Shown piece by piece: positions 1 through 23,937 of a DNA stretch of 25,919 nt. The stretch spans positions 1 to 25,919 of IMG/VR virus record IMGVR_UViG_3300030943_001863; one strand, given 5' to 3'. A program made the translations under genes and the position numbers. Origin of the DNA: a virus. The notes beneath the pieces are model-generated. The model did not search any database. It was given only the letters and a program-made list of their open reading frames with translations, and was not told the origin of the DNA. Position 1 is the first letter of the stretch. The number at the start of each line of letters is the position of its first letter.

Positions 1-39
1 GTATCAAACGAGAAAGCTCCATTTTTGAAAGCCAGGCTT

Positions 40-1014
40 ATGAAAAGAATAAACAATTTATTTGACAAAGTAGTCACAAAAGACAATTTGATGTTTGCAT
101 ACCAAAAAGCCCGGAAAGGAAAGTCCGGGCAATATGGTGTCAAGATTTTTGAAAGAAATGTTGAAAGCAACATTGATCAGTTGTACAATGAACTGATAAC
201 AGGCACATATAAAACTTCTGAGTATAGCGTGTTTAAAATATATGACCCAAAAGAACGCGAAATATTCAGATTACCCTTCAGAGATAGAGTAGTTCACCAT
301 GCCATTATGAACATACTTGAACCTATATGGACATCGATATTTATTCACCACACATATTCATGCATAAAAGGCCGTGGAATACATGCTGTGTTGAAAGATT
401 TAAAACAGGACTTGAAAGATGGTGAGAACACAACATATTGTCTTAAACTAGACATAAAGAAGTTCTATCCAACTATTGATCATGAAGTTTTGAAATCTAT
501 TATCCGTCTAAAATTGAAAGATAATAAGCTACTTAACTTATTGGATGAAATAATTGATAGTGCTCCTGGTGTTCCAATTGGGAACTATTTATCACAGTTC
601 TTTGCAAATCTGTATTTATCCTACTTTGACCACTGGTTAAAGGAAGAAAATCAAGTAAAATACTATTACCGGTATGCAGATGACATTGTTATTCTAAGCG
701 GAAATAAACCGTATTTACACGAATTACATAAGGATATAGACGCTTATTTAGTAACTAAACTAAAGGTGCAGATAAAAGGTAATTATCAGGTATTTCCTGT
801 CGATTCTCGCGGTATTGACTTCGTAGGTTATGTTTTTTATCACTCACATGTTTTAATGCGTAAATCGATAAAGAAACGACTTTGTCGGAAAGCTGCAAAG
901 CTCAATAAAATGAAGCAAATAACAGACAAAGAATATAAAATTAAAATAGCTCCTTGGCTCGGTTGGGCTAAGCATTGCAATTCAAAAAACTTATTAAAAA
1001 CTGTATTAAATTAA
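40..1014 (+). CDS. DGR-type reverse transcriptase
   Basis: This is a 324-residue reverse transcriptase of the diversity-generating retroelement class. It would copy a template repeat RNA into adenine-mutagenised cDNA that replaces the variable repeat of a target gene. Visible motifs are the fingers segment around IYDPKEREIFRLPFRDR (68-83), a catalytic Asp in LKLDIKKFYPTID (135-147), the DGR hallmark VPIGNYLSQFF (178-188; SQ where most RTs differ), YADD (212-215), and a thumb-like basic C-terminus. Length and the MKR...NL opening match the Bordetella phage BPP-1 RT, which supports ATG 40. The frame is open to base 1, and TTG 25 is an alternative start. No template repeat, Avd gene or variable repeat is visible in the window, so these probably lie upstream. 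The next gene overlaps or abuts its stop codon. Confidence 0.93.
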   Translation: MKRINNLFDKVVTKDNLMFAYQKARKGKSGQYGVKIFERNVESNIDQLYNELITGTYKTSEYSVFKIYDPKEREIFRLPFRDRVVHHAIMNILEPIWTSIFIHHTYSCIKGRGIHAVLKDLKQDLKDGENTTYCLKLDIKKFYPTIDHEVLKSIIRLKLKDNKLLNLLDEIIDSAPGVPIGNYLSQFFANLYLSYFDHWLKEENQVKYYYRYADDIVILSGNKPYLHELHKDIDAYLVTKLKVQIKGNYQVFPVDSRGIDFVGYVFYHSHVLMRKSIKKRLCRKAAKLNKMKQITDKEYKIKIAPWLGWAKHCNSKNLLKTVLN

Positions 1015-1327
1015 AAGGTTCTCTGATTTCGGAATAAAAACAAATGAAGATAAAAACATATTTGCAGTGCCTATTATATCAATAGAAGAGGTTACTAACT
1101 GCGAAATAGAAGTGTTGGATTTTGAGGCTAATGTAAAGACTAAGCATGGTCCAGGAAGATATATTGTAAAAGTGCGATATGAAAATATAGAGCGGAAATT
1201 TTTTACCAATGCAGCCCCAATTAAAGAGGCTTTGGACAAGGTTCAAAAACAAGATTTTCCATTCTTAGCAACGATAAAACAACAGCGGTTTGGTAGTGGA
1301 AGCGGAAAAACATTTTATTTCACATAA
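1010..1327 (+). CDS. small DGR-associated protein, non-canonical start
   Basis: This ORF of about 105 residues follows the RT and overlaps its stop if read from ATT 1010. From there it reads IKRFSDFGIKTNED, then a compact beta-rich protein ending in KTFYFT. From memory, similar small proteins starting M-K-(K/R)-F-S-D-(F/L)-G-I and ending in PF-x-(A/T)-T-I...F-x-F-T sit directly after DGR reverse transcriptases in Bacteroides; I could not verify this. The first ordinary start is GTG 1067, which would remove the N-terminal 19 residues. The frame is closed upstream by TAA 1007-1009. Options are initiation at ATT, an ATA at 1034 or 1058, GTG 1067, or slippage from the RT frame. The function is unknown; an OB-like nucleic-acid-binding role in the DGR is only a guess. 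Confidence 0.6.
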   Translation: MKRFSDFGIKTNEDKNIFAVPIISIEEVTNCEIEVLDFEANVKTKHGPGRYIVKVRYENIERKFFTNAAPIKEALDKVQKQDFPFLATIKQQRFGSGSGKTFYFT

Positions 1328-1339
1328 AACAAAATAGAT

Positions 1340-1759
1340 ATGATACTAGGTTACAAAAAGCTTTTTCCTTGGAACAAACCAACGGAATTCGACCGTAAAA
1401 TAATAAACGGTCATAAGAAACACACAATACGAGTAGATGAACATGACCGGTGGCGTGCCGGAAGGCGAATAAATCACTGTCATGGCGTTAGAACTAAGCA
1501 CTTTGATAATTTCTACAATAACGATTGTACAGGCACACAGAAAATTGAAATTAAATGGAGTCACTTATACAAAGATGCACCGCGTGCTGCTGTCTATGTC
1601 GATGATAAATGCATTGGTACATATACAAACATGTATCCTTCAGGACTATTAAAAGTTTTAGCATATAACGATGGTTTCGACTCAGTTGATGACTTCTTTA
1701 AATGGTTCAATACAGACTTTACTGGAAAACTAATTCACTGGACTGATTTACGGTATTGA
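1340..1759 (+). CDS. ASCH-like domain protein
   Basis: This 139-residue protein has the look of an ASCH/PUA-like RNA-binding fold. It has a GYKKLFPWNKPTEFDRKI opening, a KKHTIR motif around 26-31, a basic RWRAGRRI segment at 37-44, and a conserved C-terminus with NDGF, DFFKWF and IHWTDLRY. I recall very similar proteins as common accessory genes of Bacteroides phages. ASCH proteins are proposed to bind RNA, and some relatives hydrolyse modified nucleosides, but no catalytic assignment can be made here. It starts at ATG 1340, 12 bases after the preceding gene, and is probably co-transcribed with the DGR genes. Its role in the phage is unknown. Confidence 0.65.
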   Translation: MILGYKKLFPWNKPTEFDRKIINGHKKHTIRVDEHDRWRAGRRINHCHGVRTKHFDNFYNNDCTGTQKIEIKWSHLYKDAPRAAVYVDDKCIGTYTNMYPSGLLKVLAYNDGFDSVDDFFKWFNTDFTGKLIHWTDLRY

Positions 1760-1779
1760 TAACTCCTAAAACTAATAAT

Positions 1780-2238
1780 ATGGACTTAGTAACAGCAAAA
1801 AATATCCTGAATAACAGGACATCGACCAAAGAAGAACTCCGCGAAGCTTTAGCCTTCGCAGTTGGAGTTCCCTATAAGGAAAAGTATAAAAAACAAGTAA
1901 CGGTCTTTACTGTTTGTCGGGATTACTTCTGCGAAGAGTATGCGAAGTATAGCGGAATTCGTTATTCATTTGGGGCTAAAGATGGCAAATCGTTGGCAAA
2001 CTTGCTCAAGAAAATAGAAAAAATAGTGGATAACCCGTCGGATGATCAGATTGTGGTAGATACTTTCAAAGTGACTATACAGCAGCTTCCAGATTGGTAT
2101 AAACAGAATGGATTCAGTCTTTCAGTGATTGATAGCAAGTTTAATGAGATCGTGTCAGCAATTAAAAAGAATGGAAAACAACCAACAGCCGTTACCACAG
2201 ACTACAAGCAAAGAGTCATTGAAGATTTACTCTCCTGA
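1780..2238 (+). CDS. conserved hypothetical phage protein
   Basis: This is a 152-residue soluble, mostly helical protein that I cannot assign to a named family. A basic, Cys- and Tyr-containing middle (VCRDYFCEEYAKYSG) is followed by LPDWYKQNGFSLSVIDSKF, a segment I remember from hypothetical proteins in the replication or accessory regions of Bacteroides mobile elements. ATG 1780 is preferred because the upstream TTG 1756 overlaps the previous stop codon and the intervening residues look non-conserved. Its 3' end overlaps the next gene by 68 bases in another frame, which suggests translational coupling. Confidence 0.6.
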   Translation: MDLVTAKNILNNRTSTKEELREALAFAVGVPYKEKYKKQVTVFTVCRDYFCEEYAKYSGIRYSFGAKDGKSLANLLKKIEKIVDNPSDDQIVVDTFKVTIQQLPDWYKQNGFSLSVIDSKFNEIVSAIKKNGKQPTAVTTDYKQRVIEDLLS

Positions 2239-2707
2239 TGTAGTACAGCAGTCGCTTGCAACTATTAAGACAGCCAACGATGCATTGGCTGTGTATAATA
2301 AAGTTCCGAGCCTTGCAAAGCTTCGCAAAGAGTTCGGAAGTGATAAAATAGAGGCAATTATAAAGCTTTACCTGATTGAAATAACCGAATTGGTAAACCT
2401 AAAGCGTCCACTGACAGAACCGCAAATTGAATATATTGCTAAAGAGGTTCTATCGACCTATTACATGCTTACTATTGCCGATGTACATGTGATATTTAGA
2501 AAGATTAAACACGGTGAATTTGGCAGCATGTACGAAAGTATGGACGTTCCAAAGGTGCTTAAAATCTTTCAGCTATACTTTGATGAACGTTGCGAAATTG
2601 CTGAATATAATAGTCGTAACAATGGAATTTACGATAAAGGGGATAACATAACATCAGCCACAATGACCAAGTATTTTAATGATTTAGAAAAGAAACTAAA
2701 AAAATGA
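2171..2707 (+). CDS. conserved hypothetical protein, possible DUF6633-like
   Basis: This is a 178-residue helical protein. Recognisable features are KVPSLAKLRKEFG (about 39-51) and, towards the C-terminus, TIADVHVIFRKIKHGEFG followed by YFDERCEIAEYNS. This pattern recalls a family of Bacteroides mobile-element proteins possibly annotated DUF6633; that label is from memory. ATG 2171 gives the natural N-terminus MENNQQ. The earlier ATG 2129 lies deeper in the preceding gene and adds residues that read like out-of-frame sequence. It overlaps the previous gene by 68 bases, and its stop codon overlaps the next start in ATGA. Its function is unknown. Confidence 0.6.
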   Translation: MENNQQPLPQTTSKESLKIYSPDVVQQSLATIKTANDALAVYNKVPSLAKLRKEFGSDKIEAIIKLYLIEITELVNLKRPLTEPQIEYIAKEVLSTYYMLTIADVHVIFRKIKHGEFGSMYESMDVPKVLKIFQLYFDERCEIAEYNSRNNGIYDKGDNITSATMTKYFNDLEKKLKK

Positions 2708-2904
2708 CTCACAAACGATACATGCACCCAACTATTGAACTTTGTCGGGACTGTGAAGGCACTGGAACAATGTATGTTTACGACAAATACGATTTGTTAC
2801 ATCAAGAACCAATTGCAATAAATTGTACAACCTGTGAAAGCAGTGGACGCGTATTAGTAAGTAAAATAACAGTGATAACAGTTGAACCATTTAAAACCAA
2901 ATAA
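2704..2904 (+). CDS. small CxxC zinc-ribbon-like protein
   Basis: This 66-residue protein has two Cys pairs, CRDCEGTG (14-21) and CTTCESSG (41-48), spaced to bind one zinc ion. The CxxCxGxG pattern resembles one half of the DnaJ zinc-finger region, and no J domain is present. It is probably a structural zinc knuckle for protein or RNA contact. It begins in the ATGA overlap with the preceding gene, so it is likely the last cistron of the accessory operon before the separate promoter at 2882-2913. Confidence 0.6.
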   Translation: MTHKRYMHPTIELCRDCEGTGTMYVYDKYDLLHQEPIAINCTTCESSGRVLVSKITVITVEPFKTK

Positions 2905-2913
2905 CTATATTTG
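2882..2913 (+). promoter_or_regulatory. Bacteroidota-type promoter for the secreted-protein gene
   Basis: TATATTTG at 2906-2913 is a perfect match to the Bacteroidota -7 consensus TAnnTTTG. A TTG at 2882-2884 lies 21 bases upstream, close to the expected -33 spacing. Initiation would fall a few bases before ATG 2929, leaving a very short leader. It suggests that the next gene is expressed independently of the phage operons. The assignment is by consensus only. Confidence 0.6.
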
Positions 2914-2928
2914 TAAAAAAATACAGCC

Positions 2929-3393
2929 ATGAAAAAACTAATATTATCAATTTTCCTTTTAGCGTCGGTATACGCAAGTGCACAAATTAAGTTTATATCA
3001 ACTAATAAGGATGATATGCGTGCCCTGAGTGATAGTCTCATGTCGAATGCAAAACGTCACTATGTATTTAAATCGGAAAAAAACAGCGAGTATGCTTTTA
3101 AATATGAGTATGTAAATACCGTAGATGACTCAGACCGGTTATATGTTCTATTTCGGATTATAAAGAAAGGCGAGAATAAAGACTTGGAAATTAAAGGAGT
3201 TCCTGAATATCGTTTTGAGTCTGTTTCGGGGCGTTTCTTAGACCTTTTCCCATTCTGGAGTAAGTTTATCAATCCGGGTGAAAATATGGACGCGTTGCAA
3301 GCTAAAGGCGTTACGTATATCAAACGTGATAATATGACTTATCTGATTAATAAAGGCGGTGAAAACTGGAGTCTATCATTGAAAGATTATTGA
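2929..3393 (+). CDS. secreted protein, possible lysogenic-conversion gene
   Basis: This 154-residue protein has a clear Sec signal peptide: MKK, a hydrophobic core ILSIFLLASVYA, then S-A-Q with likely cleavage near residue 18. The mature part is soluble and beta-rich with no Cys, so it should be periplasmic or secreted rather than a lipoprotein. I do not recognise the family. It has its own consensus promoter and ends just before a strong bidirectional terminator, which isolates it from the late operons. Such an isolated secreted gene among phage modules is typical of a moron expressed in the lysogen. It could affect host envelope or fitness, but no function can be read from the sequence. Confidence 0.7.
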   Translation: MKKLILSIFLLASVYASAQIKFISTNKDDMRALSDSLMSNAKRHYVFKSEKNSEYAFKYEYVNTVDDSDRLYVLFRIIKKGENKDLEIKGVPEYRFESVSGRFLDLFPFWSKFINPGENMDALQAKGVTYIKRDNMTYLINKGGENWSLSLKDY

Positions 3394-3414
3394 TATAAAT
3401 TGCGAAACCCAATA

Positions 3415-6631: not shown

Positions 6632-7060
6632 TTAATAAGCTGAATTGTAACGTGTATTTCCACCAAAGCGGACATCGCCGGTAGTTCCTTCGGTATCGGT
6701 TATTTCGGCTGGTTTTGGAGGGAGTGTTCTATCTCCCAGTTCGCCGGTATACGATTTTTCGAGCCAGTCTATTGTTTCGGCATAGCGTCGGGCTGCAACG
6801 GCATTGGTATCGCGCGTGTGTCGTTCGTATATCTCATAGATTACTATATCCTTCAGGCGTTTTACGATTGACTTTTTACGTGCAGTACCTTCAGCATTGA
6901 AAATTACGTCAATGTCGTAGTACCGGCTTAAATAGCCTTTCATTTTATCAATACTTTCATCGATAATGTCAGTTATAATCGTATCATCTACACCGGTAAG
7001 AATATCAATAAGACTCAAATCACCGACGGTTTTAAGTTCTGCTTTAGTTAGAAATGCCAT
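6632..7060 (-). CDS. DUF1320 / Mu gp36-like head protein
   Basis: This 142-residue protein matches the DUF1320 (Mu gp36-like) pattern. An N-terminal FLTKAELKTV is followed by a helical bundle with IIDESIDKMKGYLSRYYDID (about 31-50), then the KDIVIYEIYERHT helix and an acidic Pro-rich tail ending in FGGNTRYNSAY. Proteins of this family are head-tail connector or head completion components. In Mu, gp36 is encoded near the major head protein; here it lies between terminase and portal, a rearrangement of local order. It is separated from TerL by 18 bases and from the portal gene by 9. Confidence 0.8.
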   Translation of the reverse strand: MAFLTKAELKTVGDLSLIDILTGVDDTIITDIIDESIDKMKGYLSRYYDIDVIFNAEGTARKKSIVKRLKDIVIYEIYERHTRDTNAVAARRYAETIDWLEKSYTGELGDRTLPPKPAEITDTEGTTGDVRFGGNTRYNSAY

Positions 7061-7078
7061 GTTAGTAAGTTATTTATA

Positions 7079-8716
7079 TTAGTATCCACCACGTTCACGT
7101 TTACCAATTATCGGTTTATTATCAGTCTCATCGTTCTCTTCAGAATCTCCGTTCAGGTATTCCTGGGCTTTGAGAATTGCATCAGTCAGGGAGTCCGGGA
7201 AATCGACCGGGTAACTACCGCCTTTCTCAAAGTTGAGCATTTGTGCTTTGGCCTCTTCCCAGTCCGGGTTTTCTTCCAACTCTTCGCTGAAATCTAAAAT
7301 ACCGGTGCTCAACACACTCACAAGTGTAGTGTCTATTTTTGTGTATTTGTCCGTGACGCTCTTTTGCGAAATAGGAATACTGATAGACTTGTATTTTTGT
7401 GCAGCACGGATAAGAATAGGGTAATAGATTACTTCCTGCGAAACCGAACCGTCAAAATAATAGATTGTTGAGCCATTGATGCTTAGTATCTTTTTAGCCT
7501 GTGTATAATGATATTCCAGGGCGGTTTCAATATCAGCCGTTTGCCGGCAATAAAGGTCGATAACTGTCATGTGCAAGTCGCGAACTCCAATAGTAGCCAA
7601 TGCTTTGTAACAGGCTTTATCAGAATAGGCAAAATCCCAGTTACCCACAATCACAAGATAAGCATCGAACGGTTTTGGCTTAACCATGCGTATCCATTCC
7701 TTTTTGATACGCTTGCCAACGTTTATGGGCGTATTGTAGAACTCACCCGAAAGCGTTGCCTGATCATGTTCGTATTGTTCAACCTTGCGTAAACAATCAG
7801 CTTTGGTGTATCTTTCTTCCCAACTGGGTTTCCAGTCGCTAGAACTATTAAGCTGATCGTAATACTTTGTAGTGAGATTGACTAAATACAACGTGGAAAA
7901 TTTTTCTTTCCGGATTTGATTGTTTTTAGTATCAATCTTTTTCAGGTCGAAACCTTTACGTTCGGCCAATGTGGCTACAAAACCCTTTTCGGTAAAATAG
8001 TTGTTGTTGATGATGGTGCGCTCTGAGTCCTTTGAAAACGCGCCCTGGATATCACCGGTTACTTTGTCGGCATACTCATGAACCAATGATTTATTCATTG
8101 ATTTCTTTTTGTCCTCAATATCATCAAGCGACACGTATTCAAGCCTTACACCATTTTGTCGAAGTCCACGGAACGGTTGATCAATACCCAAAGCCATGAA
8201 TGTGCAACGGTCGGTTGTCTCAAATTGACCATCAGCCCAGTTGCCATAACTCTTTTGCATACCGAAGTCTTTAATGATTCGGTTGTTTGATTCAAATTGA
8301 ACTTGCAAGTCCTGAAGCAACATAGCAGCGCGAACCTCATTAGCTCCTACAACCAGTTGAAACATGGCTTTTTGAGTTTGTTTAAGTCCGAAAGCGTAAC
8401 CCATATTAGCATGAGTAGACTTTGCCCCACCACGAAAAATGAGATTAAACAACGTTATAAAATCGTTGTTGTATAAGTCTTTGTAAATAGAAGTATGATA
8501 CCAGGCACAATCACTGTCAGCCATTGGAATGGTTGTACCTTTGCCAAAGTAGTAATTAAAGAACTGGCCGTAGTTCTCCGGTTTCAGCAGCATTTTTATA
8601 CGCGCTTCCTGTTGTTCCGGTGTTTCTTCGATAATGTTGTCAATCGTGGCCTTATTGATAAAAGCCGTTTTTTCACGGAACCGGTCGAGTAGTTCTTTAT
8701 ATTCCTTCTTAGTCAT
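7079..8716 (-). CDS. terminase large subunit, Mu gp28-like
   Basis: This is the 545-residue DNA-packaging motor and nuclease. The ATPase domain has a Walker A-like FRGGAKST (94-101), a coupling region near VVGANEVRA, and a Walker B LEYVSLDDIED (192-202). The RNase H-like nuclease domain begins at GNWDFAYSDKACYKA, with metal-binding Asp candidates D361 and D422 (YYFDGS) and an Asp in FPDSLTD near 508-512. Length and motif spacing suit a complete enzyme. Mu-like terminases use headful packaging from the integrated phage end. The gene is immediately downstream of an 87-residue ORF and upstream of the DUF1320 gene, in the leftward operon. Confidence 0.93.
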   Translation of the reverse strand: MTKKEYKELLDRFREKTAFINKATIDNIIEETPEQQEARIKMLLKPENYGQFFNYYFGKGTTIPMADSDCAWYHTSIYKDLYNNDFITLFNLIFRGGAKSTHANMGYAFGLKQTQKAMFQLVVGANEVRAAMLLQDLQVQFESNNRIIKDFGMQKSYGNWADGQFETTDRCTFMALGIDQPFRGLRQNGVRLEYVSLDDIEDKKKSMNKSLVHEYADKVTGDIQGAFSKDSERTIINNNYFTEKGFVATLAERKGFDLKKIDTKNNQIRKEKFSTLYLVNLTTKYYDQLNSSSDWKPSWEERYTKADCLRKVEQYEHDQATLSGEFYNTPINVGKRIKKEWIRMVKPKPFDAYLVIVGNWDFAYSDKACYKALATIGVRDLHMTVIDLYCRQTADIETALEYHYTQAKKILSINGSTIYYFDGSVSQEVIYYPILIRAAQKYKSISIPISQKSVTDKYTKIDTTLVSVLSTGILDFSEELEENPDWEEAKAQMLNFEKGGSYPVDFPDSLTDAILKAQEYLNGDSEENDETDNKPIIGKRERGGY

Positions 8717-14020: not shown

Positions 14021-14341
14021 ATGGCAAAGAATGTAAAACCTATCGTGGAAACTCCAATTGTTGGGACTCCAGTTATTGAAACACCGATTGTGGAAACTCC
14101 GGTTATTGAAACACCGATTGTTGAGACTCCAGTTATTGAAACTCCGATTGTAGAGACCCCAGTTGTGGAAACACCGATTGTGGATCCAGATTTTCTAGAT
14201 CAAGCCGAAACGCTTATGGCTTCGCAAAATGTAAAAGAAATTTGGCGTTGTCCTGTAAAAGGATATTGGTTCACTAAAGCCGAAAACGCTTTAGATCACT
14301 CAAAGAAAGTGGACAAAAGTCCGGAACATTATAAACTGTAA
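14021..14341 (+). CDS. pentapeptide-repeat protein before the tail sheath
   Basis: This 106-residue protein has nine tandem five-residue units alternating ETPIV and ETPVI (residues 10-54), an acidic Pro-rich extended rod, followed by a C-terminal domain (LDQAETLMASQNVKEIWRCPVKGYWFTKAENALDH) that looks folded. Small proteins with a similar C-terminal domain often precede the sheath in these phages, as I recall. It could be a minor tail or neck component. Start is ATG 14021, one base after the preceding stop. Confidence 0.65.
   Translation: MAKNVKPIVETPIVGTPVIETPIVETPVIETPIVETPVIETPIVETPVVETPIVDPDFLDQAETLMASQNVKEIWRCPVKGYWFTKAENALDHSKKVDKSPEHYKL
14048..14182 (+). repeat. 15-bp in-frame tandem repeat, nine copies
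   Basis: Nine imperfect 15-bp units encode alternating ETPIV and ETPVI, so the effective period is 30 bp. Copy number could change by slippage without breaking the frame, because the unit is a multiple of three. Confidence 0.9.
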
Positions 14342-23166: not shown

Positions 23167-23937
23167 ATGAGTTTAATAAGCATTGCCCGAGATTTGTGGC
23201 TAGTTATCCGTAATGAGCAGACCAAGAATGCTAACACAGCAATACGCGTTGGTGATGCTGCTGCTGCGATTTTAGACGCTATTGAGGCACTGCCAACTCC
23301 AGTTGATGGCGTAACTCCTCATATTGGCGAAAATGGTAACTGGTTTATTGGTGATACTGATACGACAATTAAAGCTGCCGGAACTAATGGTGATGATGGT
23401 GTAACACCTCATATTGGCGAAAATGGCAATTGGTTTATTGGTGCAACTGATACTACTGTGAAAGCTGTCGGTACAAATGGTGATGATGGTATAAGCCCTC
23501 ATATTGGTGGAAATGGTAACTGGTATATTGGTGATACTGATACAACAATTAAAGCCGCCGGAACTAACGGCAATGACGGTGTAAGCCCTCATATTGGCGG
23601 TAATGGTAACTGGTTTATTGGTGCAACTGATACGACAATTAAAGCTGCCGGTACAAACGGTAACGACGGCACTTCCGTCCCCGTAAACCTATCTATTTTC
23701 AAGCCGGATGCAAACGCACTGGCTCTACCTGTCGGGTTCAAATGGATAAATAACATAACCGTTACAAGCGTACAGTTAATGACCAACTGTTCGGGGATAT
23801 CAGTAACTATTGGTGCAACTACTTACAACCAAACAACGCTTATAGGTGTAACACTTCCCGCAGGAACTCAGATGGTAATTAATGACCTTACAATTGTAGC
23901 CGGACAAAATAACGCTAACGCAATAATAATATTTTAG
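23167..23937 (+). CDS. tail fibre-like protein with four 30-residue repeats
   Basis: This 256-residue protein has a helical N-terminus (1-46), then four near-identical 30-residue repeats (47-166) of the form D-G-(V/I)-(T/S)-P-H-I-G-x-N-G-N-W-(F/Y)-I-G-(D/A)-T-D-T-T. They resemble the NGNW-x-IG-x-TDT units found in Bacteroides surface and fibre proteins next to collagen-like segments. A beta-rich C-terminal domain (TSVPVNLS onward) ends in IIIF. The repeats probably form a thin trimeric stalk between baseplate and receptor-binding tip. Confidence 0.75.
   Translation: MSLISIARDLWLVIRNEQTKNANTAIRVGDAAAAILDAIEALPTPVDGVTPHIGENGNWFIGDTDTTIKAAGTNGDDGVTPHIGENGNWFIGATDTTVKAVGTNGDDGISPHIGGNGNWYIGDTDTTIKAAGTNGNDGVSPHIGGNGNWFIGATDTTIKAAGTNGNDGTSVPVNLSIFKPDANALALPVGFKWINNITVTSVQLMTNCSGISVTIGATTYNQTTLIGVTLPAGTQMVINDLTIVAGQNNANAIIIF
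23305..23664 (+). repeat. four 90-bp in-frame tandem repeats
   Basis: Units begin at 23305, 23395, 23485 and 23575, each encoding 30 residues. Units 1 and 3 carry GDTDTTIKAAGTNG, and units 2 and 4 GATDTT; thus there is a 180-bp higher-order pattern. Recombination between copies would lengthen or shorten the fibre stalk in steps of 30 residues without frameshift. Confidence 0.93.

Follow-up and report, generated by a model that had tools for sequence, protein, structure and literature searches.

Phage diversity-generating retroelements (DGRs) are mostly interpreted as devices that switch host range by altering tail fibers. The sequence studied here, an entire IMG/VR virus record 25,919 bases long (the window), opens at its left end with a DGR-type reverse transcriptase (RT), which raises the question of what this enzyme rewrites and with which partner protein it works. 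An earlier note on this DNA had looked to a further fiber gene as the target and to Avd as the partner. Both questions are addressed here through related contigs and records, labeled with L-numbers (L003, L009, etc.). In our view, the window likely represents the right-hand portion of a Bacteroidota phage of the transposable (Mu-type) kind, whose DGR is ordered target A, target B, template, RT, and OB-like accessory, with the first three beyond the left edge. Known phages gave no near DNA match to window bases 1-3400. The kind of element is itself known; what is new here is that its targets are twin small proteins of the early region and that an OB-like accessory probably replaces Avd.

The reverse transcriptase and its left flank

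A single open frame spans bases 1-1014 of the window and encodes VPIGNYLSQ and YRYADD, which bears out the hallmark IGNYLSQ and YADD motifs named in the earlier note. The protein matches Pfam RVT_1 (E 2e-17), and its nearest solved chain is 8ub7_A (E 3e-52), which we take to be the BPP-1 bRT, while the runner-up is a group II RT (E 7e-22). Identity to BPP-1 Brt is 35%. The ATG at base 40 is the start in most aligned relatives, and since these and BPP-1 Brt place the start at this position, the RT gene is probably complete. All 80 RTs of the relatives contain IG...SQ and all 80 contain YxDD, with one carrying a stop. Judged by these motifs and matches, the window RT is a genuine DGR enzyme. A group II intron or retron RT was rejected, as the other NCBIfam RT models scored far under their cut-offs. 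The RT alignment (A3) was built without L081 and without L075, the contig with the stop. L075:6001-6993 is an RT with one in-frame stop, lacking the OB-like accessory and accompanied by two target ORFs with variable repeats (VRs).

Table 1. Features at the left end of the window.
Feature	Coordinates	Strand	Basis
RT-template spacer, 3' end	1..39	+	homologous to L003:6001-6039
DGR-type reverse transcriptase, 324 aa	40..1014	+	IGNYLSQ, YADD, 8ub7 match, BPP-1 Brt alignment
OB-like DGR accessory, 105 aa	1010..1327	+	homologues at 78/81 RT loci; model pLDDT 88

The window begins within the spacer that separates template and RT, 39 bases before the RT start. This spacer of ~100 bases is conserved and forms stems with covariation across 22 aligned loci, both sides changing in 8 of 11 pairs, and its covariation score is 0.503 as against 0.209 for shuffled and at most 0.111 for slid alignments. 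The first 39 bases of the window are presumed to be part of the template RNA. Rfam gave no match at gathering score in the window, L003, or L008.

Template, variable repeats, and small targets in related loci

The absence of template and variable repeats from the window, as the earlier note had it, is confirmed. No adenine-only repeat pair was found within the 25,919 bases, and the templates of 7 close relatives gave no match longer than 12 bases. Two repeated stretches in the window are not DGR repeats: tandem 15-base repeats inside an ORF (14032-14196) and 90-base repeats in a gene matching the tail fiber phrog_9525 (23304-23663).

The relatives comprise 80 contigs with RTs 61-100% identical to that of the window, the one at 100% (L009) being partial. 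A diagonal scan that allows mismatches at one base and keeps pairs of at least 60 bases places a template/variable pair directly left of the RT in 70 of these 80 loci. Since the scan by itself favors pairs of the adenine type, a control was run with other bases; over the 80 loci it returned 0 pairs with mismatches allowed at C, 0 at T, and 12 at G, and the G matches we take to be these repeats again, with the variable copy in the role of template. The template is ~80 bases long and lies roughly 60-200 bases upstream of the RT, and the VRs, usually two, sit in two small ORFs (~125 and ~160 aa), sometimes three, that are in tandem and homologous to each other. Among loci with at least 1.3 kb upstream (n = 65), 51 have two VRs, 4 have three, 7 have one, and 3 have none. 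Mismatches fall at template adenines in 1840 of 1870 cases over 132 VRs, and in non-redundant two-VR loci 1214/1802 adenine cells differ compared with 16/5120 other cells. In L003, whose RT is 94% identical, the template occupies -140 to -62 counted from window base 1, the VRs begin at -320 and -717, and the mismatches are at adenines only. The repeat pair differing at adenines that was predicted beyond the left edge is thus present in the relatives. The window itself contains neither template nor target, and its own left side would be expected, from the sequences of these relatives, to carry them in the same way. Contig ends cluster beside the RT, with 15 within 1 kb to the left and 3 to the right among 81 contigs, a distribution that fits assembly breaking at repeats.

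Ten loci yielded no pair. Seven of these end close upstream of the RT, and the other three, L035-L037, represent one lineage with a single target whose VR runs into a template-type 3' end and with no separate template. By its sequence, this arrangement looks like recombination between VR and template, which would freeze the DGR. In L061 an insertion separates template and RT, and the template is more distant than usual, occupying -554 to -465 as counted from the RT match.

Comparison of near-identical contigs shows differences concentrated in VRs in some cases: L003 and L005 differ at 3/7688 bases outside as compared with 9/75 in a VR, L021 and L022 at 0/8848 versus 6/80, and L066 and L070 at 0/3573 versus 11/88. 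No VR difference was seen in 11 of the 19 contig pairs compared, and the VRs of L048 are the same as those of L049 and L050 despite 42/3983 and 241/6617 differences elsewhere. The template, covered in 18 contig pairs, differs in one of them, by one base. Because some near-identical contigs differ in a VR and the mismatches fall at template adenines, these comparisons indicate, indirectly, that the DGR has worked in nature. For the final three template adenines at the 3' end, the two VRs share a replacement base in 37, 36, and 32 loci, respectively, of the 44 counted (out of 45 non-redundant loci); such fixed replacements are expected of the IMH/IMH* boundary described in PMC7290462.

The VR-bearing ORFs do not bear out the expectation of a further fiber gene. 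Upstream of the targets, L003 encodes a MuA-like transposase, a MuB-like ATPase, and a RadA/Sak4-like ATPase, and template scans of both strands found no VRs elsewhere in eight long relatives of 33.7-57.9 kb (the 57.9-kb one scanned to 56 kb and a 38.3-kb one to 38 kb). Since the neighbors are transposition and recombination genes and no VR lies elsewhere in these eight, a fiber gene was rejected as target in favor of the small ORFs. The targets match only phrog_11581, of unknown function. Their model has a helical N-terminus and low confidence in the variable part, with no structural match by Foldseek or VIA-align, and a transmembrane-like segment is absent from all 76 targets aligned. These 76 sequences, drawn from 100 distinct targets, make up the target alignment (A1), from which truncated or out-of-frame-extended targets were excluded unless restarted at their own ATG.

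Three other Bacteroides phages also carry small-target homologues as remote VRs, with mismatches falling at A in 14 of 14 cases in Versailles, 19/19 in LoVEphage, and 13/13 in BT-TP2. The other VR of the same DGR lies in a tail protein in Versailles, beside the RT at the record end in LoVEphage, and in a 2265-aa ORF in BT-TP2. The LoVEphage homologue is 1.7 kb from a methyltransferase, and the one in Versailles is flanked by a NinB-like mediator and a replisome organizer. In BT-TP2 the small target gene is unannotated and spans the record ends (L184:44838-45224 and 1-324). A 2025 survey (PMC12629997) describes a second VR close to counter-defense genes in four gut prophages. These second VRs and the target-gene neighborhoods lead us to favor, with less assurance, small targets that would act early and inside the host cell as hypervariable binders, for example in counter-defense. 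Gene position is no proof of role, as mtd of BPP-1 also adjoins its RT.

An OB-like protein proposed in the place of Avd

The earlier note's expectation of Avd does not hold for this clade, because the bAvd model finds it in 0 of 16 phage records yet finds the BPP-1 control at 2e-37, and on this basis Avd was ruled out. HRDC was likewise found in 0 of the 16 records, and with BPP-1 Avd as a BLAST query, BPP-1 alone was matched among 17 records. Searches with PF05635 (for which BPP-1 was not run) and TIGR02436 (which misses BPP-1) are poor tests. Avd is usual in DGRs but not universal according to PMC7290462, from which we also take the definition of lineage 3 (Wu et al. 2018); the order target-TR-RT with no avd present, which defines it, is also the order found here.

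Where the earlier note saw no Avd in the window, a different accessory is present, a 105-aa ORF that follows the RT within the very stretch that the note described (Table 1). Of the homologues at RT loci, 76 are separate ORFs at the RT 3' end, one is fused to the RT (L058), and one lies elsewhere (L078); none was found in L075, L081, or L082. The accessory alignment (A2) comprises the window and 40 of 42 kept references, with L009 and L078 left out. Most of the 68 viral accessory loci are also among the first 80 contigs, and the two sets do not count as independent. In genome_contigs there are 25 copies, all under titles that on our reading denote Bacteroidota; a DGR RT is close by in 22, a template/variable pair accompanies 21 of these 22, and in 6 of the 22 RT loci the accessory is fused to the RT. 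The copies with no RT are L103, L104, whose contig starts at the accessory, and L107, in which targets are kept. In the last of these (Dysgonomonas sp. 216, 6718-8156), the targets and part of the accessory remain and the RT is gone, making it a DGR remnant.

Across 393 Bacteroidales genomes, 14 of 14 accessory copies adjoin a DGR RT or form part of one. Among 40 RT loci from these genomes (G016, L092, being outside this set), the OB-like protein is present in 14, Avd in 7, and both in 0, and an HRDC-type ORF is present in 17, none of them together with the OB-like protein. Matches to PF00570 were obtained for all 3 HRDC-type ORFs tested, and to bAvd for all 3 Avd tested. All 13 OB loci with a template/variable pair have the template 5' of the RT; 17 of 18 others have it 3'.

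The model of the accessory has strands and a helix in OB order. Its matches in the PDB are weak and include many OB proteins, e.g., SSB and PriB (best Z 5.9; SSB 3pgz Z 5.1), all under the safe level of the tool, and Foldseek against the PDB gave no match at E ≤ 0.001. In a structure search of viral models, RTs took ranks 1, 5, 6, and 10, the last being that of the crAss-like cr7_1. No Pfam family matches the protein. In the window its start codon is ATT (1010-1012), the next in-frame start being GTG at 1067. At this codon 76 of 78 loci have ATG, and the displaced copy of L078 has GAT. The ATT may be a true mutation or, since L009 has ATG, an assembly error.

Published DGR accessories beyond Avd include HRDC, MSL, and one unattributed protein (Wu et al. 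2018, as cited in PMC10053308). That unattributed accessory, according to this source, and the 105-aa protein are both without a Pfam entry, and the latter may already be the one listed by Wu et al. No OB-like DGR accessory was found in the literature searched, a set that lacked Wu et al. 2018, and papers pairing diversity-generating retroelement with OB-fold concern other subjects by their titles and abstracts.

Mechanism, alternatives, and relation to known systems

By analogy with BPP-1, the RT would copy the template RNA, which carries the folded spacer, making errors at adenines, and the resulting cDNA would replace the variable repeats of both small targets. We infer that the OB-like protein takes the place of Avd in this process and would hold the template RNA or cDNA for the RT. 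With less assurance, we propose that the small targets would work within the host cell early in infection and not as tail fibers.

The role of the targets is where a different reading has most to offer. Both small proteins could be virion parts, either small lectin-hairpin adhesins or tail-tip subunits, encoded with the RT by chance. Published phage DGR targets are mostly tail proteins (PMC8144416 and PMC10743442), the Versailles homologue is annotated as a tail protein, and the C-terminal hairpin aligns with mostly tail-type targets (hhalign 93%, 28 columns). That alignment does not extend beyond the hairpin, however, and the target genes lie within a transposition/recombination region, the Versailles one between its mediator and replisome organizer genes, in a phage that has a tail protein rewritten by that DGR as well. 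We regard a virion role as rather unlikely and continue to favor an early intracellular one.

Doubts of another sort attach to the accessory and to the state of this copy. The 105-aa protein has no Pfam family, its DGR role is assigned by association, it is missing from three RT loci, and copies with no RT exist (L103; L107, where the RT was lost; L104, where the contig is cut), all of which would suit an ordinary neighbor gene outside the DGR. Against this stand its constant position at DGR RTs in the 393 genomes, its fusion to the RT in L058, in the genome_contigs loci, and in hankyphage, its never occurring with Avd or HRDC in the 40 loci, and the high rank of RTs among its structural matches; we hold an unrelated neighbor to be very improbable and retain the protein as part of the DGR. 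Slightly less so, but still improbable, is that the window DGR is a dead or dying copy. The ATT at the accessory start coincides with the single difference from L009 over 6907 bases, and degenerate relatives are seen in L035, where the VR runs into the template end, and in L075, with its RT stop and missing accessory. The window RT is intact, though, the record breaks off 39 bases before its start, just where contig ends cluster, and the ATG of L009 leaves an assembly error as a source of the ATT.

DGRs may have a further major class of cofactor, an OB-fold protein or RT domain replacing Avd and HRDC across Bacteroidota phages including crAss-like ones, and in some of these phages the DGR may yield hypervariable proteins that work inside the cell against factors of the host or of rivals, in place of tail fibers; we put this forward tentatively, as possible and short of probable. 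A DGR that has twin small early-region proteins as its only detected targets, taken with the reuse of their family as a second target in other phages, suggests that directed hypermutation serves a function other than that of the tail. The OB-like partner is fused to the RT of hankyphage, an isolated phage, which would allow a direct test of Avd-less DGRs.

The DGR of Bordetella phage BPP-1 (mtd-avd-TR-brt) resembles that of the window clade in its RT family, its adenine-specific pairs, and a template 5' of the RT with a spacer. In contrast to the clade, BPP-1 has Avd, a single tail target (Mtd) where the clade has two small non-fiber targets, and a template of 134 bases as compared with ~80. 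Bacteroides hankyphage p00 is a transposable Bacteroides phage (PMC6199706), as the window phage is probably a transposable one of Bacteroidota, and shares the order target-template-RT. Its OB-like domain forms the RT C-terminus (hhalign 99.7%), whereas that of the window is a separate ORF, and it has one large target with the VR at residues 2188-2225, unlike the two small ones of the window clade, and a separate small ORF published as Avd.

The DGRs of crAss-like phages assigned to lineage 3 share with the window clade the target-template-RT order and the lack of Avd but have tail targets (PMC7290462). Their RTs are 51-63% identical, and the cr7_1 RT matches the OB-like model at 1.7 Å over 74 columns. 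An OB domain in crAss RTs was not found by sequence profile, though the structure search hints at one. Versailles, LoVEphage, and BT-TP2 resemble the window clade in having small-target homologues as VRs and an OB-like accessory near or in the RT, and differ from it in that the small protein is a remote second target. In LoVEphage (OY731433, L183:28932-30484), the RT runs across three frames, with the OB-like domain on the last piece.
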